A stretch of DNA of 64,000 nucleotides from Desulforegulaceae bacterium. Lineage in GTDB: Bacteria; Desulfobacterota; Desulfobacteria; Desulfobacterales; JACKCP01. The position numbers were made by a program, and so were the translations under genes. The stretch covers positions 124,001 to 188,000 of the forward strand of contig JAVETN010000001.1 in assembly GCA_034006035.1 (NCBI GenBank), in the 5' to 3' direction. The notes beneath the pieces are model-generated. The model had not been told where the DNA came from, searched no databases, and saw only the letters and a program-made list of their open reading frames with translations. This document shows, piece by piece, positions 6,831 through 25,253 of the stretch (positions within the stretch are counted from its first letter, which is position 1; every line of letters begins with the position of its first letter).

Positions 6831-9479
6831 ATGTCTGAAGAACCAAAAAGTTCTGAAATCAGTATAGAAAAGGAAATGCAACAGTCATACCTGGATTACG
6901 CCATGAGCGTTATCATAGGAAGGGCTCTTCCAGATGTTAGGGACGGATTAAAGCCTGTTCATAGACGAATCCTTTTTGGTATGCATGAACAAAGAAACGA
7001 TTATAACAAAGCTTATAAAAAATCAGCAAGAATTGTAGGTGAGGTTATTGGTAAGTTCCATCCCCACGGTGATTCTGCTGTATATGATGCAATAGTTAGA
7101 ATGGCTCAGAATTTTGCCATGAGATATCCTCTTGTGGACGGGCAGGGAAACTTTGGTTCCATTGACGGAGATTCTCCTGCTGCAATGCGTTATACAGAAG
7201 TAAGAATGAAAAAGATTTCCCATGAAATTCTTGCTGACCTTGAAAAAGAAACTGTAGATTTTATTCCAAACTATGACGAGTCTATTTATGAGCCTACTGT
7301 AATGCCTTCAAGATTGCCTGCTCTTCTTGTGAACGGCTCATCTGGTATTGCAGTTGGAATGGCGACAAATATTCCTCCACATAGTTTAAACGAAGTTTCT
7401 GATGCACTTATTGAGTTGATAGATAATCCTGAAATTACAATTGATGAAATTCTTGAAATCATTCCTGGTCCGGATTTTCCCACAGGCGGAATAATTTACG
7501 GAATAAACGGAATCAGAGACGCCTATCATACAGGCAGGGGAATTATCAAGATCCGTTCAGAAATTTTTGAAGAAAATGACGGTTCAGGAACTGTACTTAT
7601 ATCAAATGAAATTCCCTACCAGGTTAACAAGTCTAGGCTGATTGAAAAAATCGCCGAGCTTCAAAGAGATAAGGTTATTGAGGGAATAAGATATGTAAGA
7701 GACGAGTCAGACAAGGACGGAATCAGAGTTGCTGTAGCTTTGAAAAGAGACGCTATTCCTGAAATTGTTAAAAATCAGCTTTATAAGCATACTCAGTTTG
7801 AAGTAAGTTTTGGTATAAACTTTCTTGCTGTGGTGGACAGAAGACCTGAACAAATGAACATTAAGGAAATTTTGTCCCATTTTATCAGGCATAGAAGAGA
7901 AGTTGTTATAAGAAGAACCAAGTTTGATCTTAAAAAAGCTGAAGCAAGAGCTCATATTTTAGAAGGTCTTAAAATTGCCCTTGATAATATAGACGAAGTT
8001 GTTGCTCTTATCCGTGCAGCCAATTCTCCTGAAGAAGCCAAAACAGGGCTTATTGAAAGATTTTCTCTTTCTGAAAAACAGGCTCAGGCAATTTTAGATA
8101 TGAGACTTCAAAGGCTTACCGGGCTTGAAAGAGGTAAAATTGAAGAAGAATTCCAGGCTCTTTTAAAAGATATTGCCTGGTATAGAAGAATTCTTACAGA
8201 AGAACCTTTAGTATATCAGATTATTAAAGATGAAATTTCCCAGATTAAAACTGAATTTGGAGATGAAAGAAGAACAAGAATTGTAACCTCTACCGCAGAT
8301 ATAGATATTGAAGATCTTATTGCTAGAGAAGAGATGGTTGTTACAGTTACAAGAACTGGTTATATCAAGCGTACTCCTCTTTCAACATATCAGAGTCAAA
8401 GAAGAGGCGGTAAAGGAAAAATAGCAATGTCTGTAAGGGAGGAAGATTTTATTGCCCATCTTTTTGTGGCTTCCACCCATGATATGTTTTTATTCTTTAC
8501 AAACTTTGGTAAAGTGTATTGGTCAAAGGTTTATGAACTTCCTGAAGCTCAACGTTCAGGTAGAGGCAAGGCTATTGTTAATTTGCTTGACCTTGAGCAA
8601 GGAGAGTCTCTTGCTACAATTTTAAATGTTTCTTCTTTTGAAGAAGGCCATTATCTTCTTATGGCAACTAAAAATGGCTATGTCAAAAAAACCGATCTTA
8701 TGGCCTACTCAAGACCAAGAGCTGGAGGAATAATTGCCCTTACTCTTGGCGATGATGATGAACTCATTGCTGTGAGAATGACAAACGGAGACAAAAACGT
8801 TTTTCTTGGTTCAGAAAAAGGGAAAATGATTCGTTTCAATGAAAGCGATGTAAGACCAACAGGAAGACCTTCTCGCGGTGTTATAGGACTTCGGATGGCA
8901 GAAGGAGATTCAATTGTTGGTGTAGAAGTTTCTGAAAGCGATGAAAAGACAGTTTTTGCTGCAACAGAGCTTGGGTATGGAAAAAGAACCTTGTCTGAGG
9001 CTTATCCCTTAAGACGAAGAGGCGGAAAAGGTGTGATAAACATCAAGACTTCGGGCAGAAACGGTGATGTTGTAGGCATGCTTCTTCTTGATGAAAATGA
9101 TGAAATTATGCTTATATCTGATAAGGGTAAACTTATAAGAATGCATGCGTATGATATTTCAACTGTTGGAAGAAACACTCTTGGTGTAAGGCTTATAACT
9201 CTCTCGGATGATGAAAAGCTTATTGGGGTAGCAAGAATTGAAGAAAAGGAAGAAGATGATTCAGATTTAGAAGATGATTCAGATTTAGAAGATGATTCAG
9301 ATTTAGAAGATGATTCAGATTTAGAAGATGATTCAGATTTAGAAGATGATTCAGATTTAGAAGATGATTCAGATTTAGAAGATGAGTCAGATTTAGAAGA
9401 TGAGTCAGATTTAGAAGATGAGTCAGATTTAGAAGATGATGATGAGAACTTTGAGAAAAGCGACAATGAAGACGAATAA
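6831..9479 (+). CDS. gyrA: DNA gyrase subunit A with acidic repeat tail
   Basis: Breakage-reunion subunit of gyrase. In the 882-residue protein the catalytic Tyr is Y121 (AAMRYTE), and S82 and D86 occupy the quinolone-determining positions in the sensitive form. The GyrA box QRRGGKG at about residue 523, followed by beta-pinwheel blades (RSGRGK, RPSRGV, RRRGGKG), marks it as GyrA rather than ParC. After the last blade the protein runs into ten tandem (D/E)DSDLE-type hexapeptides and a short Asp/Glu end, giving a strongly negative tail. In E. coli an acidic GyrA tail tunes DNA wrapping; a similar role here is inference. gyrB is not in the window. Confidence 0.97.
9255..9434 (+). repeat. Ten-copy 18-bp tandem repeat inside gyrA
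   Basis: Ten consecutive 18-base units. The first seven read GATGATTCAGATTTAGAA exactly. The last three differ by one base (GATGAG...), changing Asp to Glu in the second residue. The unit is a multiple of three, so copy-number change would keep the reading frame and only lengthen or shorten the acidic GyrA tail. Confidence 0.98.
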
Positions 9480-12754: not shown

Positions 12755-13822
12755 GTGACAGGAAGATTATGGTATAAAAGAGAAGATCTCAGTTTGGCAA
12801 GTAGACTCAGAAGAACTTATTATGAGCTGATGAGAGATGATCTTGATCAGTTTATTCTTCAATATGGTCTTGTTGATTCCTACTTTAATTTTCAGGAAAG
12901 AAAAGAACCTTATCCCTTTGTTGAAAGAAGAGAGCTCAAGCCCAAAGCAAGAATTCCTACCCTTGAATACGGTTCCCACAACGCTTTTCTTGTAATTTTT
13001 ATTGAAGACACTATTCCTGTGTCCCATAAAAAATATATTCGTTTTTTTGACGACAATAAAGTTACAAAAAAGAACTTCATCAAGGCTGAATCTATTTCTT
13101 TGAAACAGGAGTTTGAAAGAACTCAGAAGTATCTTGACTCAAAATATGTCTGGGATCTTTTAAGAGATATTCTTCCGGTTGATTATGCTCTTTTAATTCA
13201 AAGAGATCCTTCAACCAAGCTTTATGACAAATATTGCCTTACCCATTTTCATGTGAGGATAGACTGGCCCATAGCAGAGGCTGCTGAAGAACTGGCCATT
13301 GCCCTTAGGTATACTTCAAAAAATCTTTATGAAAAAGGGGATAAATACGCAGAAGATCTTCAGAAAAAATTTTTTGAATATTATGGACAGCCTGTGATGT
13401 CGGGAGGAAGAAGAACAGCTGCTATTGTTGCTTCTCAGTATTTTAGACGACTTTCCTGTCTTTCCACTGTTTATGCTGGAAGCAGTGAAAGTCGTGCTAT
13501 GATAAGAATATCTGAAAAAGGCCCTTCAAAAACTGTTCTCATGAAGCTTTCAGAAAAAGAAGTCAGGGAGATCTCTTCCCAGAGTTCCATGACAAATGCA
13601 GCTTTTAAAGAAAACTATGTTATTGCCAGGGAGGGCAGATCAAGCGTGGTTCTTTTCCATGTAACCTATGAATATACTGTCCATGCAAAAGAACCTGATG
13701 ATGGCAAACTCAGAGAATTGAATCCAGATCTTTATTGGCTCACTGTTGGTTCGGAGCAGATACTTCCAAAGCCTTTTACCTGGAAATTTCCTCCACTCAA
13801 TGTCAACAGAATTTATACCTAG
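12755..13822 (+). CDS. Conserved hypothetical protein, 355 residues
   Basis: I do not recognise the family. The protein is soluble, with no signal peptide or membrane segment, rich in charged residues and in Tyr/Phe/Trp. Visible blocks are a start MTGRLWYKREDLSLASRLRRTY, a middle DYALLIQRDPSTKLYDKYCLTHFHV and an end LPKPFTWKFPPLN. Codon use resembles the neighbours, so it looks native. The start is a GTG at 12755 with a poor ribosome-binding site. Its last 20 bases overlap, tail to tail, the end of the acetyltransferase gene on the other strand. Confidence 0.75.
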   Translation: MTGRLWYKREDLSLASRLRRTYYELMRDDLDQFILQYGLVDSYFNFQERKEPYPFVERRELKPKARIPTLEYGSHNAFLVIFIEDTIPVSHKKYIRFFDDNKVTKKNFIKAESISLKQEFERTQKYLDSKYVWDLLRDILPVDYALLIQRDPSTKLYDKYCLTHFHVRIDWPIAEAAEELAIALRYTSKNLYEKGDKYAEDLQKKFFEYYGQPVMSGGRRTAAIVASQYFRRLSCLSTVYAGSSESRAMIRISEKGPSKTVLMKLSEKEVREISSQSSMTNAAFKENYVIAREGRSSVVLFHVTYEYTVHAKEPDDGKLRELNPDLYWLTVGSEQILPKPFTWKFPPLNVNRIYT

Positions 13823-14300
13823 GATCTGTATCAACTGGAATAGTGTTCATCATTGCTGTTTCATCGCAGTCAGGAAATTTTACACAATGAATGCAGTCAG
13901 CCCATATTTTAAGCGGGAGTTCTGATTTATCAATTATTTTAAAATCAAACTTTTTAAAAAAACCAGGCTGGTATGTAAGCGTAAATACATGGGTCATTCC
14001 ATACTGGTTTGCCTCTTCCATTACTTTTGAAACAAGAGCCCTGCCTATTCCTTTTTTATGGTAGTCTGAGTTTACAGCCAGAGATCTTATTTCAGCAAGA
14101 CTTTCCCAACAAAACTGAAGGGCACAACATCCAATTATCTCTTTTGTATCATGATCTTCAAACACCCAGAAGTCTCTCAAATGATCGTAGAGCTGGCTTA
14201 AGGGCCTTCCAATCATTTGTCCTTTTGCTGCAAAAGAATTTATAAGTTTATGAATTTTTTTAACATCTTTAAGGGTTGCGTGTCTTAAAATCGGAGTCAT
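13803..14300 (-). CDS. GNAT acetyltransferase, short N-acetylglutamate synthase type
   Basis: The 165-residue single GNAT domain has the acetyl-CoA loop YHKKGIGRALV preceded by the IRSLAV strand. Its start, LRHATLKDVKKIHKLINSFAAKGQMI, and the RPLSQLYDHLRDF segment match the stand-alone acetyltransferase half of ArgA, used by many bacteria for the first step of arginine synthesis. Two cysteine pairs occur (CC near residue 58 and CIHC near 137). The reaction would be acetyl-CoA plus glutamate to N-acetylglutamate; assignment rests on resemblance to the short NAGS group. It overlaps the convergent unknown gene by 20 bases. Confidence 0.8.
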   Translation of the reverse strand: MTPILRHATLKDVKKIHKLINSFAAKGQMIGRPLSQLYDHLRDFWVFEDHDTKEIIGCCALQFCWESLAEIRSLAVNSDYHKKGIGRALVSKVMEEANQYGMTHVFTLTYQPGFFKKFDFKIIDKSELPLKIWADCIHCVKFPDCDETAMMNTIPVDTDPRYKFC

Positions 14301-14392: not shown

Positions 14393-16330
14393 TTATTCAG
14401 GGATAAAGATTCCTATCACCCCTTTTTTGTCTTTTGAATCAATTATCTCACCTGAATCCGGATCAAATTTTTTGTATTCTATATTATCAGGAATTGGAAA
14501 ATATTCAGGGTATTTTCTGCTGTCTGCAATATATTTCATTACATCCTTCCATATAGGCAAAGCAGTTCTTGCCCCTGTTTCCAAATGGCCAAGTGAGCTG
14601 TTATCATCGCAGCCTACCCAGACCCCAAGTGCAATAGACGGGGAAAATCCAATAAAAAGAGCGTCTTTGTAATTGTCAGTTGTTCCTGTTTTTCCTCCAA
14701 GAGGATATCCTTTAATTTGGGCTCGTCTTCCTGTTCCTTCTTCAATCACTGCCTGAAGAAGGTTTACCATTACAGCAGCTTCTCTTTCAGAGCAAACTCT
14801 TTTTGCAATTTCTTGATTTTTGGAATATAGAATTTCTTCTCCTTTGGCTATTGAATCAATATACCAAGGCTTTTTATAGTATCCTCTGGCTGGAAAAACT
14901 GAATAAGCAGAGGTAAGTTCAACAAGGGTTGTTTCATAACTTCCAAGAGCCAGGGAAAGGGTCGGGCTAAGTTTTGTTGTAAATCCAAATTCTTTTGCAA
15001 AAGATACAAAGTTTTCAGGCTTTAAAGTATCAAGAAGCCTGACAACCGGTATGTTTTTTGAAAGAGTAAGTGCCTTTCTAATGGTTGTTTCTCCGGAAAA
15101 AGTTTTGGAGAAATTGTTTGGTTTCCAGTCCTTATTTCCATAAAGATTAAACACAGTGGGAACATCTCTTAGGCTAGTGTTTTGTTGGTAGCCTTCTTTA
15201 ATTGCCTGAGCATAAATAAAGGGTTTGAAGGCTGAACCGGGTTGTCGTTTTGCATAGAGGGCCCGGTTGAATTTTGAGGTTGAATAGTCTTTGCCCCCTG
15301 AAAGAGCAAGGATTTTTCCTGTACTTATATCTATGGCAATTACTGCACATTCAGGTTGTGAATTTATGTTTTTTGCCTTCATTCTTTTTTCAATCAAAGG
15401 CATGTTTTTTTCAATGGACTTTTGAACTGCATTTTGAATTTTTGAATTAAGTGAAGTGTGAATTTCAAGCCCTGATTTGTAAAGCAGTTCGTATCCCAGC
15501 TCTTCTTCAAGCTTGCTTCTTACAACAGAAGTAAACCAGGCATATTGTTTAGTTGAAATGCTTTTTGTTTCAAGCACAATTTCTGAGACAATGGATTCAT
15601 CATATTCCTGGCGGGAAATTTTATTTTCAGCCAGCATATTTTTCAACACCTGATTTCTTCTTTTTAATGTTTCATCAGGATTTACTAAAGGAGAAAGATA
15701 ACTTGGGGCCTTGGGCAGTCCTGCAATAAGAGCAGCTTCAGCAATATTTAAATCATTGGCTGATTTATTAAAATATGTCAGTGCAGCAGATTCTGCTCCG
15801 TAAGCACCGCTGCCGAAATAAACCTGATTTAAATAAAGAGCAAGAATTTCATTTTTTGTATATTTTCTTTCAATTTGATAAGAAAGAATGATTTCTATAA
15901 GTTTTCTTTTTATTTTTTTTTCAGGAGACAAAAATAATGTTTTGGCAAGCTGCTGGGTTAAAGTGCTGGCACCCTGGGTAAAAGATCTTGTTGTAATGTT
16001 TTTTACAAAAGCTCTTGCTATCCCTTTTGGTGAAATCCCGGAATGATGGAAAAATCTTCTGTCTTCAGTAGCAAGAAGGGCATCTATAAGGTAAGGAGAA
16101 AAATTCTCCAGATTAAGATGGATTCTTCTTTCAGTATACAATTGGCTTATAAGCTGGTTGTCAGCCGAGTAGATTTTTGTAATAAGAGGCGGGGTGTATG
16201 TTTCAAGCCTTTTAACTTCATTTAAGTCAGGAAGTTTAAACATATAAAGACCTATGCTGCCCCCAAGAGTTATGCCGGCACAAATAAACAAAACACTAGG
16301 AAGAATCTTTTTTAAAAACTTAAAAGCCAT
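14393..16330 (-). CDS. Class A penicillin-binding protein (PBP1A-type)
   Basis: Bifunctional peptidoglycan synthase of 645 residues, anchored by one N-terminal transmembrane helix (about residues 8-30) with the rest periplasmic. The glycosyltransferase domain has the catalytic glutamate E89 in TEDRRFFHHSG and the QGASTLTQQLAK motif (120-130). The transpeptidase domain has Ser366 in PGSAFK, SKN at 424-426 and KTG at 547-549. All key residues are intact. Its ATG overlaps the TAA of the HEAT-repeat regulator by one base (TAATG on the minus strand), so it is translated as the last gene of the chemosensory operon. The physiological meaning of that coupling is not known. Confidence 0.95.
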   Translation of the reverse strand: MAFKFLKKILPSVLFICAGITLGGSIGLYMFKLPDLNEVKRLETYTPPLITKIYSADNQLISQLYTERRIHLNLENFSPYLIDALLATEDRRFFHHSGISPKGIARAFVKNITTRSFTQGASTLTQQLAKTLFLSPEKKIKRKLIEIILSYQIERKYTKNEILALYLNQVYFGSGAYGAESAALTYFNKSANDLNIAEAALIAGLPKAPSYLSPLVNPDETLKRRNQVLKNMLAENKISRQEYDESIVSEIVLETKSISTKQYAWFTSVVRSKLEEELGYELLYKSGLEIHTSLNSKIQNAVQKSIEKNMPLIEKRMKAKNINSQPECAVIAIDISTGKILALSGGKDYSTSKFNRALYAKRQPGSAFKPFIYAQAIKEGYQQNTSLRDVPTVFNLYGNKDWKPNNFSKTFSGETTIRKALTLSKNIPVVRLLDTLKPENFVSFAKEFGFTTKLSPTLSLALGSYETTLVELTSAYSVFPARGYYKKPWYIDSIAKGEEILYSKNQEIAKRVCSEREAAVMVNLLQAVIEEGTGRRAQIKGYPLGGKTGTTDNYKDALFIGFSPSIALGVWVGCDDNSSLGHLETGARTALPIWKDVMKYIADSRKYPEYFPIPDNIEYKKFDPDSGEIIDSKDKKGVIGIFIPE

Positions 16331-17985
16331 TATTTTTTAAGCAGCTTGTCCAAAGCATCTTTTAAATCTTCATCTCTGAAGGGTTTGTTTATCACTATAT
16401 TTATTCCTGATTCTTTTATCTTTTTGGAATCCAGTCTGTTTTTAGTTGTTTGACCAATAAAATCACTTTGGGTAGTTACCATAATAATTGGAAGCTCTTC
16501 AGGGCGATAAAATTCTCTTGCTTTTTTGGTAAGTTCAAGCCCGTTTATTTCAGGCATGTTAAGGTCTGTGATCAAAAGATCGGGCTTTTCATTTTCCATG
16601 GCTTCAATTGCTTTTGAAGGAAATTCGAAAAGAACAGGGAGAAGTCCCATTTGATGGAGCTTTTGTTTGTAGATACGAAGCATCATTTTTGAGTCATCAA
16701 CAGCAAAAACAGTAAGAAGTTTTTTGGTGTCTTTGAAATCAGTTGATGCCATTATTTTTTCAACAACTTCATCTTGATCAAGAGCTGCAAGAAGGTTTGT
16801 AAAGTGTTCTCTTGTATCAGGATGGGCATTTTTTGACAGATGAATTATTGAAAGATTGGCAAAGTTTTTTTCTTTTATAAGCTGCTCAAAAATTCTATCG
16901 GCACCTGAGTCAATTATGGTTGCAACTATTTCTTTTGATTCAGCATCCATAGAGGAAACCATGTTTTTTATTCCTGCAACAAGAATTGGTGAAAGGTTTT
17001 TATCTATTGCTCTTGCCGCTGACATTCTCACTTGCTTTTCAAGATCTTGAAGTCCTTTAGCAAGACTTATGGCAGCTTTGTCTGAAGGAAGTTTTTCCAG
17101 GGCTTCATAGGCTGCAAATCTTATATTAGGATTTTCAGGATGTTTGAAAAGGAGTTTTGAAATTGCCTGAATTGCACTTTTGTCGCCAATGCTTCCAAGC
17201 ACATTAAGGGTTAAGATTGTTGAATCATCATCTTCGCATTTTAGATTTTCAATTACCATGGGAACAGCTTTTTCTCCAATGTTCACAAGATTATCAATAG
17301 CTCTGTTTCTTATTGAGGTTGAATGGGAGTTTAAAAGCTGAATAAGCTTTGATAGAGCATAATGATCCTGAACTTCTGCCAGCTTGTCTACAATGAGAAG
17401 ATCTGCCTCGGTTTCACCAGTTATAGCTTCTCCAAGAAGATTGATGGCCGAAGGTCCGCCAAGCTTGGATAGAGCATTTACTGCTTCTGTCTTAAGACCA
17501 GTGTGTCCGAAATAAAGAAAGTCAGCAATTTTACGTATGGTTGAAGTTGAGCCAATAGATGCAAGTGCTCTTATAGCTGCAGTTAGAGTTGGTACATTTG
17601 TTTCGTTTACCAGGATATCATTTAAAGCTGGGACAGCATCTGAAATTTGGAGTTCACCGGCAATCCTGATTAAAATTATTTTGTTATCAACTTTTGGATC
17701 TTTTAGGTATTTTACAATGAGTTCACCATGGTTGAAGAATTTATCAATCAAAAGTGAGTAGAGCCTTTTTTTTATTGAAGGCTCTTTAATTTCAAATTTG
17801 ATTATATGAACAAGGCAGGGATATGAAATTTCATCTGGAGCCCTGCTGATTTCTAAAAGAGTCTTTGTTTGGTTTTTTTCATCAAGTCCTGGAAAAAACT
17901 GAATAAGGGCTTTTGCCTTTACCAGGTCATTTTCTTTTATGCAAAATTTAAGTTCATCAATAAATTCTTCGGGTTTAACTGACAT
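16330..17985 (-). CDS. HEAT-repeat protein with C-terminal response-regulator receiver domain
   Basis: 551 residues. About residues 1-420 are a helical solenoid of HEAT/PBS-lyase-like repeats (recurring AVPALNDIL, ALASIGS, ALSKLGG units). Residues about 430-551 are a receiver domain with the acidic pair in FAVDDSK, phospho-acceptor Asp474 in LLITDLNMP, and the lysine in VINKPF. No DNA-binding output is present, so phosphorylation probably alters protein-protein contacts of the HEAT scaffold. It is the only stand-alone receiver in a che cluster that has no separate cheY. It lies 104 bases after cheR and is coupled by a one-base overlap to the downstream penicillin-binding protein. Confidence 0.88.
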   Translation of the reverse strand: MSVKPEEFIDELKFCIKENDLVKAKALIQFFPGLDEKNQTKTLLEISRAPDEISYPCLVHIIKFEIKEPSIKKRLYSLLIDKFFNHGELIVKYLKDPKVDNKIILIRIAGELQISDAVPALNDILVNETNVPTLTAAIRALASIGSTSTIRKIADFLYFGHTGLKTEAVNALSKLGGPSAINLLGEAITGETEADLLIVDKLAEVQDHYALSKLIQLLNSHSTSIRNRAIDNLVNIGEKAVPMVIENLKCEDDDSTILTLNVLGSIGDKSAIQAISKLLFKHPENPNIRFAAYEALEKLPSDKAAISLAKGLQDLEKQVRMSAARAIDKNLSPILVAGIKNMVSSMDAESKEIVATIIDSGADRIFEQLIKEKNFANLSIIHLSKNAHPDTREHFTNLLAALDQDEVVEKIMASTDFKDTKKLLTVFAVDDSKMMLRIYKQKLHQMGLLPVLFEFPSKAIEAMENEKPDLLITDLNMPEINGLELTKKAREFYRPEELPIIMVTTQSDFIGQTTKNRLDSKKIKESGINIVINKPFRDEDLKDALDKLLKK

Positions 17986-18089
17986 TTTATCTCTCTGTCT
18001 TTATGTTTTTAAGGCTTAAGAAACTAAATTGACTGGTTAGCCCAGCCATGGTTAAGTTGAAAATCGGTAAAAAGAATAAACCTTTGGCC

Positions 18090-18935
18090 CTAGTCATCCT
18101 TAAATTGGTAAAAAGTTGAATTTAAATATCTTTGAGGTTTAAACATCTGGGTGTCGTTGTTTAAAGATTCTGTAGAACCTATAAGCAGGTAGCCGTCCTT
18201 TTCAAGTGAATTCCCAATAGTATGATAAAGCTTTGCCCTGTCAGGCGGATTAAAATAAATAGCAACATTTCTGCAAAAAACAATATCAAATTTTCCAGTG
18301 ATGTTAAGAGGTTTTAAAAGATTAACTTTCTGAAAAGAAACCATGGATCTTATTTCGTCTCTTATTTTCCAGTTATCCCCTTTTTTTGTAAAAAACTTTC
18401 TCAGCCTTTCAGGTGTCAATCCTCTTGCAATTTCAAACTTATTGTATAAACCATAGCTGGCTTTTGCTATAGCAGCATTTGATATATCTGTTCCTAGAAG
18501 GCGGATATTATATTGTTTTGAATTTGCAATGCCCAGCTCATGCATTATCATTGCAACACTGTATATCTCCTGACCTGTGGAGCTTGCAGCACTCCAGATT
18601 CTAATGTTTACAGGCCTTCCGATTTTTCCCGCAGATCTTTTATCTATAAGGTCTGGAAGAACTTTAAATTTTAAAAGTTCAAAAGGATTTTTGTCCCTGA
18701 AAAAATATGTTTCATTAGTTGATATTGCATCAATAATTTCTTTTTCTAATTTTTTCCCGGGGTCACTTAAAGCTGAATCGTAGAGTTCTTTAAAAGAGTT
18801 TAGGCTGTGTTTTTTTAAAATTGGCCTTAGCCTGGTTTCAATGAGATATTCTTTTCCTGGGTCAAGTGAAATTCCCGAAATTGAGAGAATGTATTTTGCA
18901 AAAAGAGAAAACTCAACCGGAGTTATTTTTACCAT
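18090..18935 (-). CDS. cheR: Chemoreceptor glutamate methyltransferase CheR
   Basis: It uses S-adenosylmethionine to methylate glutamates of chemoreceptors. The 281-residue protein has the N-terminal helical CheR domain (about 1-75). The SAM-binding domain follows, with WSAASSTGQEIYSVAM, the LGTDIS strand and FCRNVAIYF. The length matches the family. It starts six bases after the cheB stop in the operon. No methyl-accepting receptor is encoded nearby, so its substrate must lie elsewhere. Confidence 0.95.
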   Translation of the reverse strand: MVKITPVEFSLFAKYILSISGISLDPGKEYLIETRLRPILKKHSLNSFKELYDSALSDPGKKLEKEIIDAISTNETYFFRDKNPFELLKFKVLPDLIDKRSAGKIGRPVNIRIWSAASSTGQEIYSVAMIMHELGIANSKQYNIRLLGTDISNAAIAKASYGLYNKFEIARGLTPERLRKFFTKKGDNWKIRDEIRSMVSFQKVNLLKPLNITGKFDIVFCRNVAIYFNPPDRAKLYHTIGNSLEKDGYLLIGSTESLNNDTQMFKPQRYLNSTFYQFKDD

Positions 18936-18941
18936 AATTTA

Positions 18942-20060
18942 TCACCGCAGCCTTGATGGACTTTTGACAGTTTTAACTATTTCATCTGCAATGTCTTCAA
19001 GGGAGCAGATAGTGTCAACTATCCCTTCTTCTATAGGAGCTTTTGGCATTCCATAAACAGTGCAACTTTCTTCATCCTGGGCAATTATGGTTGCATTTTT
19101 TTTGTGCATTTCCAGAAGCCCTTTGAAGCCGTCAGAACCCATCCCGGTCATAATTACACCGGTAGCCCTTCCAACATAATAATCAGCCACTGATCTGAAA
19201 AGGTAATCAGCTGAAGGTTTGCAGCTGTTTTCAGGAGGATCATCTGTAATTTTTATAAGCCTTCTCATCCCGTCGTTTGAGGCAGCGACTTTCATCTGCA
19301 TGCCTCCGGGAGCAATATAAACCTTATTAGGTTCAATTGTCTGCCCGTTGACTGCTTCCATAACTGAAAGTTTTGATTTTGAATCAAGGCTTTTTGCAAG
19401 AGATGCTGTAAAAACCGGCGGCATATGCTGGACAATAAGTATTGGAACTCCGATGTTTTCCGGAAGCATGGGGATCATTTTTGAGAGTGCATTTGGTCCC
19501 CCGGTTGATATGGCTATTGTAATAATTTCTGATTTTGATTTTAATGAGAAGGGTTTTGTTAATGTTTTTTTTGTCTGGGATTTATAATCAGGTTTTGTGA
19601 TTTGGGGTAAAGGTTTTTTTGTGCTTTTAAATCTGGACTTAAGTTCCCTTCTTTTTAAAAAAGCTTGAATAATAGGAACAAGGCTTGTTTTTACTTTTTC
19701 CATATTTTCTTTCATTGAACTGCCATCAGAAGAAGGCTTTTCAATAAAATCAAAAGCTCCCAGTTCAAGTGCTTTGATGGTGATATGGCTCCCTTTTCCT
19801 GTAAGGGTGCTTACCATCAGAACTCCTATATCTAAATTTTTTTTATTGAGCTCTTCTAAAACTTCAAGTCCGTTCATCCCGGGCATTTCGACATCAAGAG
19901 TAATCATATCAGGTTTAAGAGAGTCAACCTTACTTAGGGCAACTTTCCCTGTATTGGCGGAACCCACAACTTCAACCTGAGGAATTTCTTTAAGGATGTC
20001 GCTGAGGATTTTTCTGTAAAATATTGTATCATCAACAACTAAAATTCTAACTTTATTCAA
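18942..20060 (-). CDS. cheB: Protein-glutamate methylesterase/glutamine deamidase CheB
   Basis: The 372-residue response regulator removes the methyl groups added by CheR. The receiver domain has the acidic pair VVDD (9-10), phospho-acceptor Asp56 in TLDVEMP and Lys108 in IEKPS. A Ser/Lys-rich linker (about 135-178) leads to the methylesterase domain with the triad Ser185 (AISTGGP), His212 (QHMPP) and Asp310 (GMGSDG). These positions sit 21-24 residues later than in E. coli CheB, owing to the longer linker. It lies 13 bases after cheW. Confidence 0.96.
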   Translation of the reverse strand: MNKVRILVVDDTIFYRKILSDILKEIPQVEVVGSANTGKVALSKVDSLKPDMITLDVEMPGMNGLEVLEELNKKNLDIGVLMVSTLTGKGSHITIKALELGAFDFIEKPSSDGSSMKENMEKVKTSLVPIIQAFLKRRELKSRFKSTKKPLPQITKPDYKSQTKKTLTKPFSLKSKSEIITIAISTGGPNALSKMIPMLPENIGVPILIVQHMPPVFTASLAKSLDSKSKLSVMEAVNGQTIEPNKVYIAPGGMQMKVAASNDGMRRLIKITDDPPENSCKPSADYLFRSVADYYVGRATGVIMTGMGSDGFKGLLEMHKKNATIIAQDEESCTVYGMPKAPIEEGIVDTICSLEDIADEIVKTVKSPSRLR

Positions 20061-20073
20061 TTTAATATCCTGA

Positions 20074-20520
20074 CTAATCAGTTGATAAAACTTTTTCTAT
20101 ATCTAAAATTCCTATGAGAGTTTTTTCAGTCTTTACAATGTTTTCAAAATAACTGCCCTCAATTCCTCCAAGGTTTGCCGGAGGGCTGTCAAGCTGTTCT
20201 GCCCTCGCAACTATCACGTCGCTTATTTCATCCACAAGAAGTCCTATTTGCTCGTCGTAAAAATTGACTATTATATTTCTATTTCCTTTGCTTTTTTTCA
20301 CAGGAGAAAGTCCAAGCTTTTTTCCAAGGTCAAGGATAGTTACAATTCTTCCTCTTAAATTCAAGATTCCTTTTACAAAATCTTCAGCCTGGGGCACAGT
20401 TGTTACTTCAAACTGCTTGTTTATCTCCTGAATATTTAAAATATCTATTCCGCAAAGAGCCTCTCCAACATAAAAGGTGGCAAGTTCAAGGTTTTTGGCT
20501 GATTTTTGTTGTATGGTCAT
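20074..20520 (-). CDS. cheW: Chemotaxis coupling protein CheW
   Basis: The 148-residue single CheW/SH3-like domain protein links chemoreceptors to CheA. Family features are the start strand ELATFYVGEALCGIDILNIQEI, the conserved FVKGILNLRGRIVTILDL core and the C-terminal IGILDIEKVL. It starts 12 bases after the cheA stop. No signal or membrane segment is seen, as expected for a cytoplasmic array protein. Confidence 0.95.
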   Translation of the reverse strand: MTIQQKSAKNLELATFYVGEALCGIDILNIQEINKQFEVTTVPQAEDFVKGILNLRGRIVTILDLGKKLGLSPVKKSKGNRNIIVNFYDEQIGLLVDEISDVIVARAEQLDSPPANLGGIEGSYFENIVKTEKTLIGILDIEKVLSTD

Positions 20521-20532
20521 TTTCAGTCCTTT

Positions 20533-23500
20533 TTAGTTGAGATAATTTTTTATTGTTTCGAGAAGTTTTTCTCTGTCAAGTTTGATTTGGTAGTCATCAA
20601 TTCCAACAGCTCTTCCCTTTGCCATATCTCCTTCTCCTGCCAGGGAGGTAAGTGCTATAACAGGAAGATTAGAAAATCTTTCATCCTTTTTAATTCTGGA
20701 TGTAAGTTCAAATCCGTCCATGTTGGGCATTTCAAGGTCAGTAAGCACCAGGTTATAATTGTATTCTTCAGCGGAAATAATATTCCAGGCAATTTCTCCG
20801 TCTTCAGCTATTGTTACATCATAGCCGTCTTCCGCAAGGAAACCACTAACCTGATTTCTGAAAAAAGACGAATCTTCTGCAAAAAGAATTTTAATTGAGC
20901 CAGGATCCAGGGAATTGCTTTTGTTTATATCTGAATAAGTTTCAGATTCATTGTACCATTCCGGATGCAAAATTTTGAAAAAGGAATAAACATCAACCAT
21001 CAGGGTTGTCATCTCATTTATTATAAGAGAGCCCATTATTCCCGGTTGCATCAATGTTTGTGTGTCAATGTTGAGGACTACATCAACTGCATCTACAGGC
21101 GGCTGCACCATTAACCCAACTTCTTTTCCCTTAAGCTTAAACACTATGACTTCGACTTGTTCGGAATCAGGAAGCGGCTGAACATTGGCAACTTCTCCAA
21201 GCTCGTGAAGAGGAAGCGAAGCTCCGCGATATTGAACAACTCTCTGACCGCCCACAAGTTCCACACTTTTTGACTTTATTCTTTCTATTCTTTCAACAAG
21301 ATTTAAGGGAACTGCAAATTGTTCCTCCTGGGTGTTTTTAAAAAGAAGAAGGGAAGCATGTTCTTTGAGCTTGTTTGATGAACTTTCCAATTTGTTTTTT
21401 TCTTCTACAAGTTTTTTAGAGGATGAAAAATTTGATAATTGACTCATTTCTGCAATAGAAGCAACATCAAGTATAAGAGCAACTCTTCCGTCTCCCATAA
21501 TTGTGGCTCCTGCATATCCTTTGCAGTTTTTAAGATGTTTCCCCAGGGGTTTTACAACAATTTCTTCAGAATCCATTAGTTCGTCTACAATAAGGCCGTA
21601 TCTATGTGTTCCTGCTGAAACCACAGCAATATTGATAGCACTTTTTGAGTGATATCTTCTGTCATAGTCTTTTCGTATTTGAATTTCTTCTTCAGAAAGC
21701 TGCTTATCATCTCTAGTTTCGTCAAAGAAATCTTTGGAGCGTCTGTCAGCTATACTAAACCTTCTCTCGGGTTTTTCTTCCCCTGTTTCAGGGTCAATAA
21801 AAGTTCTTGGAATCTGAAGAACATCAGCCAGTCTTATAAGGGGAAGCAAAGTACCTCTCAGCCTTATAACTGAAGCATTTCCTACTTTTTCAATTTTTTC
21901 TTTTATTTGCCCTGCAGGGACTCTTAAAAGTTCATCCAAATTTACCTGGGGAATTGCATATTTTTCATGTCCTGTGGAAGTTATCTGGCTTGGTATAATT
22001 GCAAGTGTAAGAGGAAGCTTGATTTTGATTACGGTTCCTCTGCCTTTTTTGGAATCAACGTCTATAATTCCGCCTAGTTTTTCCAGATTGCTTTTTACAA
22101 CATCCATTCCTACTCCCCGGCCCGAAACTTCAGTAACCTCTTCAGCTGTTGAAAAGCCTGGAGCAAAAATAAGGTTCATTTTGTCTTTGACGGAAAGAAG
22201 GTTAATCTCTTGTTCTGTTATCACACCTTTTTTTAATGCAATGGAAGCAATCTTTTCAGGGTCAATTCCACCACCATCATCCTCAATTTCAATATTCACC
22301 TGTCCTGCTTCGTGGTAAGCCTTGAGACTTATGGTTCCGTTTGGAAGTTTTCCTGCCATTTCTCTTACATCAGGCATTTCAATACCATGGTCAACAGAGT
22401 TTCTGACAAGATGAGTAAGAGGGTCGTTGATTGCTTCTATTATTGTTTTATCAAGTTCAACATCCTTACCTTCCAATATAAGGTCAATTCTTTTTCCCAG
22501 ATTTTTTGAAAGATCCCTTACAACTCTGGTGAATTTGTTGAAGACATTGGATATGGGCTGCATCCTTGTTTGCATAATAGCTTCTTGAAGTTCTGAAGTT
22601 ATCATGTCAATTCTCTGGCTTGCAGAGTCTATATTATGCTGGTTTGATGAACTTAGTCCTTGGACGAGCTGGTTTCTACTTAGAACCAGTTCTCCGGCAA
22701 GGGTCATAAGGCTGTCAAGCAGATTTATATTAACCCTGAGTGATGACAGTGTTTTCTTTGAAAGGTCATCATTTGGGCTTGGTAAAGGTTTCTTTTGTCC
22801 GTTATTTATTTCTGAAGGCACTGGGTTTTGTGGGGATTTGTTTTTTTCCATTTCCTTTGGCTTTTCTTTTAGTGGTTTTTCTTCTTTTGATTCTTTAAAA
22901 ACAAGAGGTTCAGTTTCCTTGACTGGTTCTTCAGCTTTTTTAATCAGAGGACCTTTTGCTTCTTGGATATCCTCTTCTGGAAGAGACATTTTATCATCTA
23001 TTATATTGTGGACATATTCTTCGTCAAGTTCCACAAGTATTGGTGCCATATCAGGTTCTATTATTGAGCCGAAAAGAATGAACAGTGGAATTTTTGTTGG
23101 AATTTCATCTTCTAGGGTTCCTATTGAAGAAACGTCAATCTTGCAGTCAAGGATTACTCCGCTTTTTGAAAGGGAGGTTATTACTTCAAGCGGATTTTTG
23201 TTTTTTTTATGAATATCTTTAATAAGGTCGTATTCAAGAATATAAATAAATTTTCCCTGTTTTTTGGCCTGTTCAATATCATATCTATTTGGTCGAAGAA
23301 TGATTTTACTTTCAGGGTGCTGTATTTGGCAGATTTCTTCTATTGCAATCTGTTCGTCTTCAGGAAGATTTGTTTCAGTTATGCTTTTCAAATCTTTGAC
23401 AAATTGACTTATTTCTTGATCATTACTTGTTTCAATGTTTGAGATTAGTTCTTTCAGCTTGTCAAAGCTTCTCAGAAGAATGCTGATTATATCAGAGCTG

Positions 23501-23754
23501 ATAACAATCTCTCTGTCCCTTATAAGGCCAAGAATGTTTTCCAGATAATGAGAAAGCTCTTTTACAACGTCAAGCCCCATGAAACCAGCACCTCCCTTGA
23601 CAGAGTGAGCGGCTCTAAAAACACTGTTCACCAGCTCATCGTCAAGTTCCTCTCCTTGTTCTTCAAGGGTGAGTAAGTCTGTTTCTATATCACCAAGATG
23701 CTCCAGGGATTCTTCGACATACATTTGCAAGGTTTCATCATCATCAAAAAACAT
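20533..23754 (-). CDS. cheA: Hybrid chemotaxis histidine kinase CheA with C-terminal receiver
   Basis: 1073 residues. The Hpt domain has phospho-His50 in AAHSVKGGAGF. A charged Pro/Lys/Glu-rich linker (about 255-330) precedes the dimerisation helices. The ATPase domain has the N box HLVRNSVDHG (448-457), DDGGGID (492-498) and GFSTAEE...GRGVGMDVV (533-553). A first CheW-like P5 domain (about 580-770) is interrupted by a charged loop at roughly 652-705. A second CheW-like domain (about 800-930) follows, then a receiver with Asp1006 in LTDLEMP. It is the first gene of the operon, with an AGGAGG site. The fused receiver may be a phosphate sink or the output. Confidence 0.95.
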   Translation of the reverse strand: MFFDDDETLQMYVEESLEHLGDIETDLLTLEEQGEELDDELVNSVFRAAHSVKGGAGFMGLDVVKELSHYLENILGLIRDREIVISSDIISILLRSFDKLKELISNIETSNDQEISQFVKDLKSITETNLPEDEQIAIEEICQIQHPESKIILRPNRYDIEQAKKQGKFIYILEYDLIKDIHKKNKNPLEVITSLSKSGVILDCKIDVSSIGTLEDEIPTKIPLFILFGSIIEPDMAPILVELDEEYVHNIIDDKMSLPEEDIQEAKGPLIKKAEEPVKETEPLVFKESKEEKPLKEKPKEMEKNKSPQNPVPSEINNGQKKPLPSPNDDLSKKTLSSLRVNINLLDSLMTLAGELVLSRNQLVQGLSSSNQHNIDSASQRIDMITSELQEAIMQTRMQPISNVFNKFTRVVRDLSKNLGKRIDLILEGKDVELDKTIIEAINDPLTHLVRNSVDHGIEMPDVREMAGKLPNGTISLKAYHEAGQVNIEIEDDGGGIDPEKIASIALKKGVITEQEINLLSVKDKMNLIFAPGFSTAEEVTEVSGRGVGMDVVKSNLEKLGGIIDVDSKKGRGTVIKIKLPLTLAIIPSQITSTGHEKYAIPQVNLDELLRVPAGQIKEKIEKVGNASVIRLRGTLLPLIRLADVLQIPRTFIDPETGEEKPERRFSIADRRSKDFFDETRDDKQLSEEEIQIRKDYDRRYHSKSAINIAVVSAGTHRYGLIVDELMDSEEIVVKPLGKHLKNCKGYAGATIMGDGRVALILDVASIAEMSQLSNFSSSKKLVEEKNKLESSSNKLKEHASLLLFKNTQEEQFAVPLNLVERIERIKSKSVELVGGQRVVQYRGASLPLHELGEVANVQPLPDSEQVEVIVFKLKGKEVGLMVQPPVDAVDVVLNIDTQTLMQPGIMGSLIINEMTTLMVDVYSFFKILHPEWYNESETYSDINKSNSLDPGSIKILFAEDSSFFRNQVSGFLAEDGYDVTIAEDGEIAWNIISAEEYNYNLVLTDLEMPNMDGFELTSRIKKDERFSNLPVIALTSLAGEGDMAKGRAVGIDDYQIKLDREKLLETIKNYLN

Positions 23755-23978: not shown

Positions 23979-25253
23979 TTATTCTTTAAAAAGAATATCA
24001 CCCTTGCTGAAGTTAGAATTGTCTATTTGAATCAAAAATGTTTCATTTGGCTTTGTTTTTTCAACAGAATTGAGATTTTGGTCTGTAATTTTTATTACAG
24101 TATAAGGTTTTGGGGCTTTATCAGGGGAAAGTATTTTTACTTGCTCTCCGGGTAAAATTCTGTTTTTTGCATCTACAATAAGCATTTTATCCTTTATTCC
24201 CGTTATTGTGCCCAGAAAGTTGTGAACATTGTCAGGTTTAATGTTTTCAATGTTTGCTGAGATTGAATCAGGGTCATCCAGGAAAAAACCTGTACAGTAT
24301 TTTCTATTTGCTACGCTTGACAAAAGCTCTGTCCATGATGGCTTGACTGAGTATGTTTTTTTATGAAAATATAAATCAATTGCTTCTCTGTATGCTTTTA
24401 CAACGGAACCCAGATAAAATGTCCCCTTCATTCTGCCTTCAATTTTAAGAGAGTCAGCTCCTGATTCAATTACTTTGTCAATATGTTCTATCATACAGAG
24501 ATCTTTTGAATTAAATATATAAGAACCCCTATCATCTTCTAAAACAGGGTAATATTCCCCTGGTCTTAGTTCCTCTTTTAAATGATATTTCCATCTGCAT
24601 GGGTGGGAACATCTGCCTTTATTTGCGGATCTTCCTGACATAAAACTGCTTAACAGACATCTGCCCGAATATGAAATACACATTGCACCGTGAACAAAGA
24701 CTTCTGTTTCTATTTTGGTGTTTTGGTTAATAGTTTTTATTTGTTCAAGTGTAAGCTCTCTTGCCAGATTAACCCTTGAGACTCCGATTTTTTCCCAGAA
24801 ATTTACTGACATATAGTTTGTTGTGTTTGCCTGGGTGCTTAAATGTATAGGTATTTCAGGTGAATACTCAATTGCCAGCTGGACAACTCCAGGGTCTGCA
24901 ATTATTATGGCGTCAGGTTGTAGTTTTGAAAGAAAAATCAGATAGTTTGAAATAGCTTCAAGCTCGTTGTTTTCAGGGAAAGCATTACATGTTATATATG
25001 TTTTAACTTTGTGTTTCCTCGCAAATTTTATCCCTTCTTCCATTTCCTGATCTGTAAAGTTTCCTGCAAAGTTTCTCAGGGAAAAATTTTTTCCGCCCAG
25101 ATAAACTGCATCTGCTCCAAAATGAATTGCTGTCTTAAGTTTTTCAAGGCTTCCTGCAGGGGCGAGTAGTTCTGGTTTTTTTATTTTCAATTTTTTATTC
25201 CCAGTTTTTAAACCATCAAGGAACTTATCCAAAGATTTTTTAAAAATTGTCAA
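23979..25253 (-). CDS. U32 family peptidase-like protein (TrhP-type tRNA hydroxylation)
   Basis: The 424-residue protein has the U32 signature: the start LLAPAGSLEKLKTAIHFGADAVYLGG, the middle EVFVHGAMCISYSGRCLLSS and the cysteines in NKGRCSHPCRWKY. U32 proteins of this class (TrhP/YegQ) form 5-hydroxyuridine at the tRNA wobble base from prephenate, and the Cys cluster is thought to hold an Fe-S centre. The C-terminal part (about 340-424) is a small beta domain. It lies 48 bases after a tRNA-Arg gene on the same strand. Assignment to TrhP rather than another U32 branch is inference. Confidence 0.85.
   Translation of the reverse strand: MTIFKKSLDKFLDGLKTGNKKLKIKKPELLAPAGSLEKLKTAIHFGADAVYLGGKNFSLRNFAGNFTDQEMEEGIKFARKHKVKTYITCNAFPENNELEAISNYLIFLSKLQPDAIIIADPGVVQLAIEYSPEIPIHLSTQANTTNYMSVNFWEKIGVSRVNLARELTLEQIKTINQNTKIETEVFVHGAMCISYSGRCLLSSFMSGRSANKGRCSHPCRWKYHLKEELRPGEYYPVLEDDRGSYIFNSKDLCMIEHIDKVIESGADSLKIEGRMKGTFYLGSVVKAYREAIDLYFHKKTYSVKPSWTELLSSVANRKYCTGFFLDDPDSISANIENIKPDNVHNFLGTITGIKDKMLIVDAKNRILPGEQVKILSPDKAPKPYTVIKITDQNLNSVEKTKPNETFLIQIDNSNFSKGDILFKE

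Follow-up and report, generated by a model that had tools for sequence, protein, structure and literature searches.

A HEAT-repeat receiver protein conserved with an F5-like CheA in Desulfobacterales, and a class A PBP at the border of the same operon

The window analysed here is a 64-kb stretch of DNA from a genome of 2.64 Mb (97.7% complete), whose nearest named relatives in our survey are Desulfobacterales such as Desulfobotulus. It carries a chemosensory gene cluster in the order cheA-cheW-cheB-cheR-(HEAT+receiver)-class A PBP, all six open reading frames lying on the minus strand (Table 1). The ORF list and Pfam domains confirm the arrangement and position given by an earlier sequence-only reading, in which the last gene was called PBP1A. 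The one-base overlap reported there for the last two genes was also found, stop and start codon being combined in TAATG. Inspection of the sequence before the PBP ATG revealed no clear ribosome-binding site, and a spacing of 92 bp separates the PBP gene from the following GNAT gene. A scan returned 58 promoter-like sites (32.8 ± 6.4 expected) and 13 terminator-like sites (9.3 ± 3.5 expected); several of the promoter-like sites precede cheA, and one site of each kind falls into the gap between cheR and the HEAT-receiver gene. Co-transcription of the PBP gene with the che operon is likely in the present genome. Elsewhere in the window, a tandem array (9251-9440, period 18, 10.6 copies) lies in the 3' end of a gyrA-like ORF (6831-9479) and encodes an acidic tail of DDSDLE repeats.

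Table 1. The che operon, its immediate neighbours and two sites within its genes, in window coordinates
Feature	Position	Strand	Evidence and remarks
cheA	20533..23754	-	1073 aa; Pfam Hpt, H-kinase_dim, HATPase_c, CheW matches, Response_reg
Insertion splitting the first CheW domain of CheA	21646..21798	-	about 51 residues; gap between CheW profile matches; DRRS and DRR motifs
cheW	20074..20520	-	148 aa; Pfam
cheB, methylesterase with receiver	18942..20060	-	372 aa; Pfam
cheR, methyltransferase	18090..18935	-	281 aa; Pfam
HEAT-receiver gene	16330..17985	-	551 aa; Pfam HEAT_2 and Response_reg; AlphaFold; PDB fold search
Asp474 codon, predicted phosphorylation site	16564..16566	-	ortholog alignment
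Class A PBP	14393..16330	-	645 aa; Pfam Transgly and Transpeptidase; one-base overlap with HEAT-receiver gene
GNAT acetyltransferase gene	13803..14300	-	follows PBP here and in relatives; neighbouring block
hyp355 (355-aa ORF)	12755..13822	+	no Pfam match; conserved in neighbouring block
Peptidase U32 family gene	23979..25253	-	conserved upstream neighbour of cheA; background control

The HEAT-receiver protein combines a solenoid (about residues 1-413) with a C-terminal receiver (about residues 425-549), and both parts are present in its AlphaFold model (mean pLDDT 87.3, pTM 0.74). A fold search against the PDB yielded only generic alpha-solenoids and receivers, among them 2a9o for the receiver (TM-score 0.90 by target). 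All residues by which we judge a response regulator are in place: D430 and D431, D474, T504 and K534 are invariant in 11 HEAT-receiver orthologs, and we take them to be the acidic pair, the phospho-accepting aspartate, the Thr/Ser and the lysine of an active receiver. The aspartate is indeed residue 474, the position assigned to it from the letters alone. The N-terminal helices of the solenoid are likewise conserved in 11 orthologs. Relatives of 922-969 aa that appear duplicated occur in two genomes (L057:2845-5613, L058:6629-9424, L061:6599-9508); those at L057 and L058 give two matches each and look like head-to-tail duplications, while the one at L061 has HEAT matches by Pfam and no receiver. 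Literature searches, which left most subscription papers out of reach, listed no paper describing a fused HEAT-receiver protein encoded by a bacterial che operon, and the accessible part of a paper on CheA3 of Desulfovibrio (PMC3944678) makes no mention of a HEAT protein.

CheA possesses one Hpt domain, with His50 at what is presumably the phospho-acceptor position, followed by dimerization and ATPase domains, three CheW matches and a C-terminal Response_reg domain at residues 956-1068; the P2 family gave no Pfam match at E<=0.001. The first two CheW matches correspond to profile positions 8-64 and 66-135, and the three most likely represent two domains, of which the first is split by about 51 residues. 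The DRRS and DRR motifs of this insertion are invariant in 10 CheAs. Two CheW domains, the first of them interrupted, together with a receiver are what the accessible text of PMC10782961 describes for CheA of Desulfobacteraceae, and the same text places nearly all CheAs with two CheW domains in class F5. Because of this match the Che class, the assignment of which the sequence-only reading had recommended, would be F5-like, a label taken from CheA architecture (two CheW domains, C-terminal receiver, no P2 match) and not from a class model or from phylogenetic placement among reference CheAs. A flagellum and CheY, also expected of F5, are represented in the genome by FliM and a CheY-like protein. 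F5 systems (CheA of Azospirillum, Rhodospirillum centenum and Caulobacter; that of Desulfobacteraceae in PMC10782961) resemble the present one in the duplicated CheW domain of CheA, its C-terminal receiver and the lack of P2, and they also have CheW, CheB and CheR beside CheA. In contrast to them, cheY is unlinked here, a HEAT-receiver gene closes the operon and the first CheW domain is split.

The observation that the cluster lacks an MCP gene and a stand-alone cheY holds locally, that is for the 64-kb window, in which matches to PF00072 are confined to CheB, CheA and the HEAT protein. We rejected this local lack as the mark of an unusual system, since both are encoded elsewhere in the genome. 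Six full MCP genes and one 38-codon MCP fragment are scattered outside the window, the nearest ending about 3.7 kb to its left. Their recognised sensor parts are NIT, dCache (two) and 4HB, with none in two of the MCPs, and the C-terminal stretch beyond the hairpin tip has a similar length in all six (151-154 residues). Four of the six (L062, L064, L065, L067) end in FKV, FKI or YKV and not in a classical pentapeptide tether. The CheY-like protein (127 aa) is encoded on another contig, a flagellar cluster with FliM (N-terminal peptide TQEEVDSLL) lies about 70 kb to the right of the window, and PilT is present as well. All four places in the genome that encode CheW domains belong to the present CheA and CheW, so that a single Che system was detected.

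The flagellar cluster contains a further gene directly after fliA (L180:6933-9344, corresponding to C1:269433-271844 of the same genome, outside the window), which also occurs in L204, L206 (cut), L207, L208, L209, L213, L214 and L215; it was not found in L210, L211, L212 and L216, and L205 and L217 are too short to show it. The encoded proteins (439-921 aa) carry 4-12 copies of a peptide resembling the FliM N-terminus (SQDDIDSLF type), which we take to be a docking motif for CheY-P. After the repeats comes a predicted membrane stretch, and the C-terminal part is FliL-like by eye. At least four such peptides are present in 9 of the 1514 ORFs of >=200 aa in the fetched loci, and all nine are the gene after fliA. 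Two of the proteins were compared with Pfam and gave no match, and literature searches on FliL and CheY-docking repeats returned nothing pertinent.

Conservation of gene order was surveyed in the best 80 of 205 relatives plus loci from further genomes, seven loci being dropped as repeats (L045-L049, L051, L056). In 54 of the 56 non-redundant loci that hold both, the HEAT gene is co-directional with cheR and comes immediately after it; for this part of the operon the gene order is thus conserved, as the sequence-only reading had suggested should be checked. The two exceptions, L147 and L144, have the HEAT-receiver gene near che genes in other orders (in L147 before cheA-W-B-R) and stem from MAGs labelled Gammaproteobacteria and Neomarinimicrobiota, labels that may be binning errors. 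The HEAT gene has many further relatives without linkage to che.

The association extends beyond gene order. Among 242 genomes of the order (the three 242-genome sets for CheA, HEAT-receiver and PBP were taken as the same on the strength of the handles they have in common), the present CheA type was found in 42 of 47 carriers of the HEAT-receiver and in 26 of 195 non-carriers (p=1.6e-23), where the CheA threshold is loose and admits some partial matches and the genomes are not independent. Ancestry was handled only by a subset with one genome per family, in which 13 of 14 carriers and 9 of 57 others have this CheA type (p=1e-7). Five carriers are without it at the threshold. Conversely, 26 genomes have the present CheA and no HEAT-receiver at E<=1e-60, with a weaker match (8e-35) in G051. 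CheA and HEAT-receiver genes are linked within 10 kb in 26 of the 42 genomes that contain both, with no detected linkage in the other 16, and because co-occurrence persists without linkage we read the HEAT-receiver as a functional partner. The protein is therefore genetically tied to the Che system, and the proposal that it serves as an output of CheA has gained ground: linkage and phylogenetic profile show co-conservation, the receiver is intact, and its role as a real partner of the present kinase appears well supported, with phosphotransfer as the predicted step between them.

The PBP belongs to the class A enzymes (PBP1A type), with which it shares transglycosylase and transpeptidase domains with intact and invariant catalytic motifs; unlike the PBP1A of the same genomes (745-800 aa), it falls into a distinct lineage of shorter proteins (about 630-655 aa) in the second PBP tree, from which G009_C11 (232 aa) was dropped. 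This lineage is present in 133 of the 242 genomes, 45 with and 88 without the present CheA, and 23 of the 68 genomes with that CheA are without the PBP. Co-occurrence is weak (CheA type in 45/133 genomes with PBP versus 23/109 without, p=0.03), and the two genes adjoin, within 10 kb and on one strand, in 16 of the 45 genomes holding both. A peptidoglycan synthase dedicated to Che would be expected to occur and to stay linked with it, which is not what these figures show. The PBP switches between presence and absence at least 11 times over the che tree, which was built rapidly under LG+G4 and gave long-branch warnings (L095 dropped for too few columns; L144 and L147 excluded from this count). 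An operonic-only PBP clade was rejected by the AU test (p=0.02) because two unlinked PBPs fall inside it.

In che-linked loci with room for the respective gene, the PBP is found in 14 of 34, GNAT and hyp355 in 24 of 34 each, radC in 20 of 28 and the upstream U32 gene in 28 of 33; genes without evident chemotactic role are therefore more constant here than the PBP. The underlying neighbour count covers 54 loci. It omits L144 as well as L079 and L145, in which an antisense ORF hid CheB and which stayed in the 56-locus linkage count with HEAT after cheR; its 31 loci scored as absent include L147, where absence of the PBP after the operon is not comparable. Of 20 PBP stretches that were fetched, 7 lie next to che and 13 do not, and in 7 of these 13 GNAT or hyp355 occurs within the next four ORFs, so that a block existing without che often begins with the PBP. 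Further along, several of these loci contain radC and gpsA. Without adjoining che genes, the PBP thus often stands in a PBP-GNAT-radC-gpsA block, and in the present genome the che operon borders this block. On the other hand, the PBP remains beside che in L070, L076, L186, L187 and L190 although GNAT and hyp355 are gone, and in five genomes (L183, L184, L188, L189, L190) it directly follows cheR with no HEAT gene between. An own PBP promoter and lack of conserved linkage, named by the sequence-only reading as evidence against coupling, apply in part at most: linkage is partly conserved, as is the one-base overlap, which is present in 10 of the 18 loci that contain the two genes. This tight spacing is not specific, because overlap or abutment is seen for the GNAT gene as well (-4 in 8 of 13 loci).

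With respect to the output of the pathway, FliM was found in 20 of 21 HEAT-receiver carriers versus 33 of 75 non-carriers, and in 25 of 31 genomes with the present CheA type versus 28 of 65 without. Among genomes with this CheA type it accompanies 19 of 20 HEAT carriers and 6 of 11 non-carriers (p=0.013). The suggestion that the system is not, or not only, flagellar thus finds no support, given the sole detected Che system, the flagellar cluster, CheY and the near-constant presence of FliM in HEAT-receiver carriers. The present CheA type without FliM was seen in 6 of 31 genomes, namely the HEAT-receiver carrier G028 (95% complete) and five more, because of which another output may exist in some relatives; such genomes must either have another output or contain the che genes as relics. 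One of these five, the single-contig genome G069, has the present CheA type and no FliM match; the system can thus be retained where no flagellum is detected.

We consider it probable, on the strength of comparative sequence data, that the operon encodes the sole detected Che system of this organism, that this system serves F5-like flagellar chemotaxis with the HEAT-receiver as a second response regulator, and that the PBP is not its output. Signals from MCPs encoded elsewhere would reach CheA, and this kinase would phosphorylate CheB, the HEAT receiver at Asp474 and the unlinked CheY; both phosphotransfer and the direction of signalling are predicted from the domains. CheY would act on FliM, and phosphorylation of the HEAT-receiver would alter what its alpha-solenoid binds, the target probably being a component between Che array and motor.

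Other explanations appear less convincing. If the PBP were a genuine output, the HEAT-receiver would bind or localise it and chemosensory signals would tune peptidoglycan synthesis, for instance around the flagella at the pole. The recurrent overlap, translation of the HEAT-receiver just before a PBP whose ATG lacks a clear ribosome-binding site, the separation of this lineage from the longer PBP1A that these genomes also encode, and the 16 genomes with adjoining genes, some after loss of the rest of the block, would all be in line with such a role, which we nevertheless hold to be improbable: most genomes with this PBP are without the present CheA and a third of those with the CheA are without the PBP, at the che operon the PBP is less conserved than GNAT, hyp355 or U32, tight spacing is shared by the GNAT gene, and GNAT or hyp355 is retained in more than half of the fetched loci that are not next to che. 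The PBP as a dedicated output was accordingly rejected, and the coupling to a peptidoglycan synthase suggested by the sequence-only reading is unsupported, as is any regulation of the PBP by the Che pathway. It is best read as a gene at the edge of the conserved block that comes next, at most co-transcribed with che and presumably outside its control; literature searches on Che-linked PBPs returned nothing pertinent. An alternative-function or type IV pilus system in place of flagellar taxis is just as hard to credit. The genome does encode PilT and the six CheA genomes without FliM would agree with it, but PilT is present in 89 of 96 genomes, which makes it uninformative as a test of pilus taxis, and FliM is enriched with the present CheA. 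Moreover, a CheA with a single Hpt stretch and two CheW domains is unlike the multi-Hpt Tfp and ACF forms in the accessible text of PMC10782961, several Hpt domains being common there, if not universal. Somewhat less remote, yet still unlikely in our view, is that the HEAT-receiver serves mainly to shorten CheY-P signalling, as a phosphate sink or a regulator of CheA, and is not a second output. Neither CheZ nor CheC nor CheX was noticed next to the operon, CheA bears a further receiver and that of the HEAT protein is intact, all of which would suit a sink; a solenoid that is long and conserved, its N-terminal helices included, would be unneeded for it, however, and tandem HEAT-receiver fusions exist.

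For a second response regulator of this kind, precedents can be named from other organisms. The Cpc7/CheY7 pair of Myxococcus xanthus Che7 was reportedly studied by Darnell et al. in 2014. According to the accessible part of PMC11514114, Cpc7 binds CheY7, and a HEAT-repeat protein thus stands under a chemosensory receiver as it would here, whereas two separate proteins with a function in development are involved there and one fused protein in our case. In Halobacterium, deletion of the HEAT_PBS protein OE2401F, encoded at the che genes, decouples Che and flagellum, so that a HEAT protein couples Che to the motor (PMC2666748, in its accessible part); no receiver domain was detected in that protein and the motor is an archaellum, as opposed to receiver and flagellum here. 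Both likenesses are drawn from descriptions of the proteins. By this analogy, OE2401F and Cpc7 would be the nearest functional precedents for the HEAT-receiver. A more daring version, which we put forward as speculation with a small chance of being right, is that the fused HEAT-receiver of Desulfobacterales is an adaptor which, in parallel with CheY, relays the signal of CheA to the flagellar motor, that it is the bacterial equivalent of the HEAT adaptor of haloarchaea, and that it works with the flagellar-cluster membrane protein displaying 4-12 FliM-like CheY-docking peptides.

Two unusual genes close one che operon, and of these the HEAT-receiver co-evolves with the kinase while the PBP does not. 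Tied to F5 chemotaxis, the HEAT-receiver would give sulfate reducers, a group whose motility signalling has been little studied, a second output branch that can be tested.
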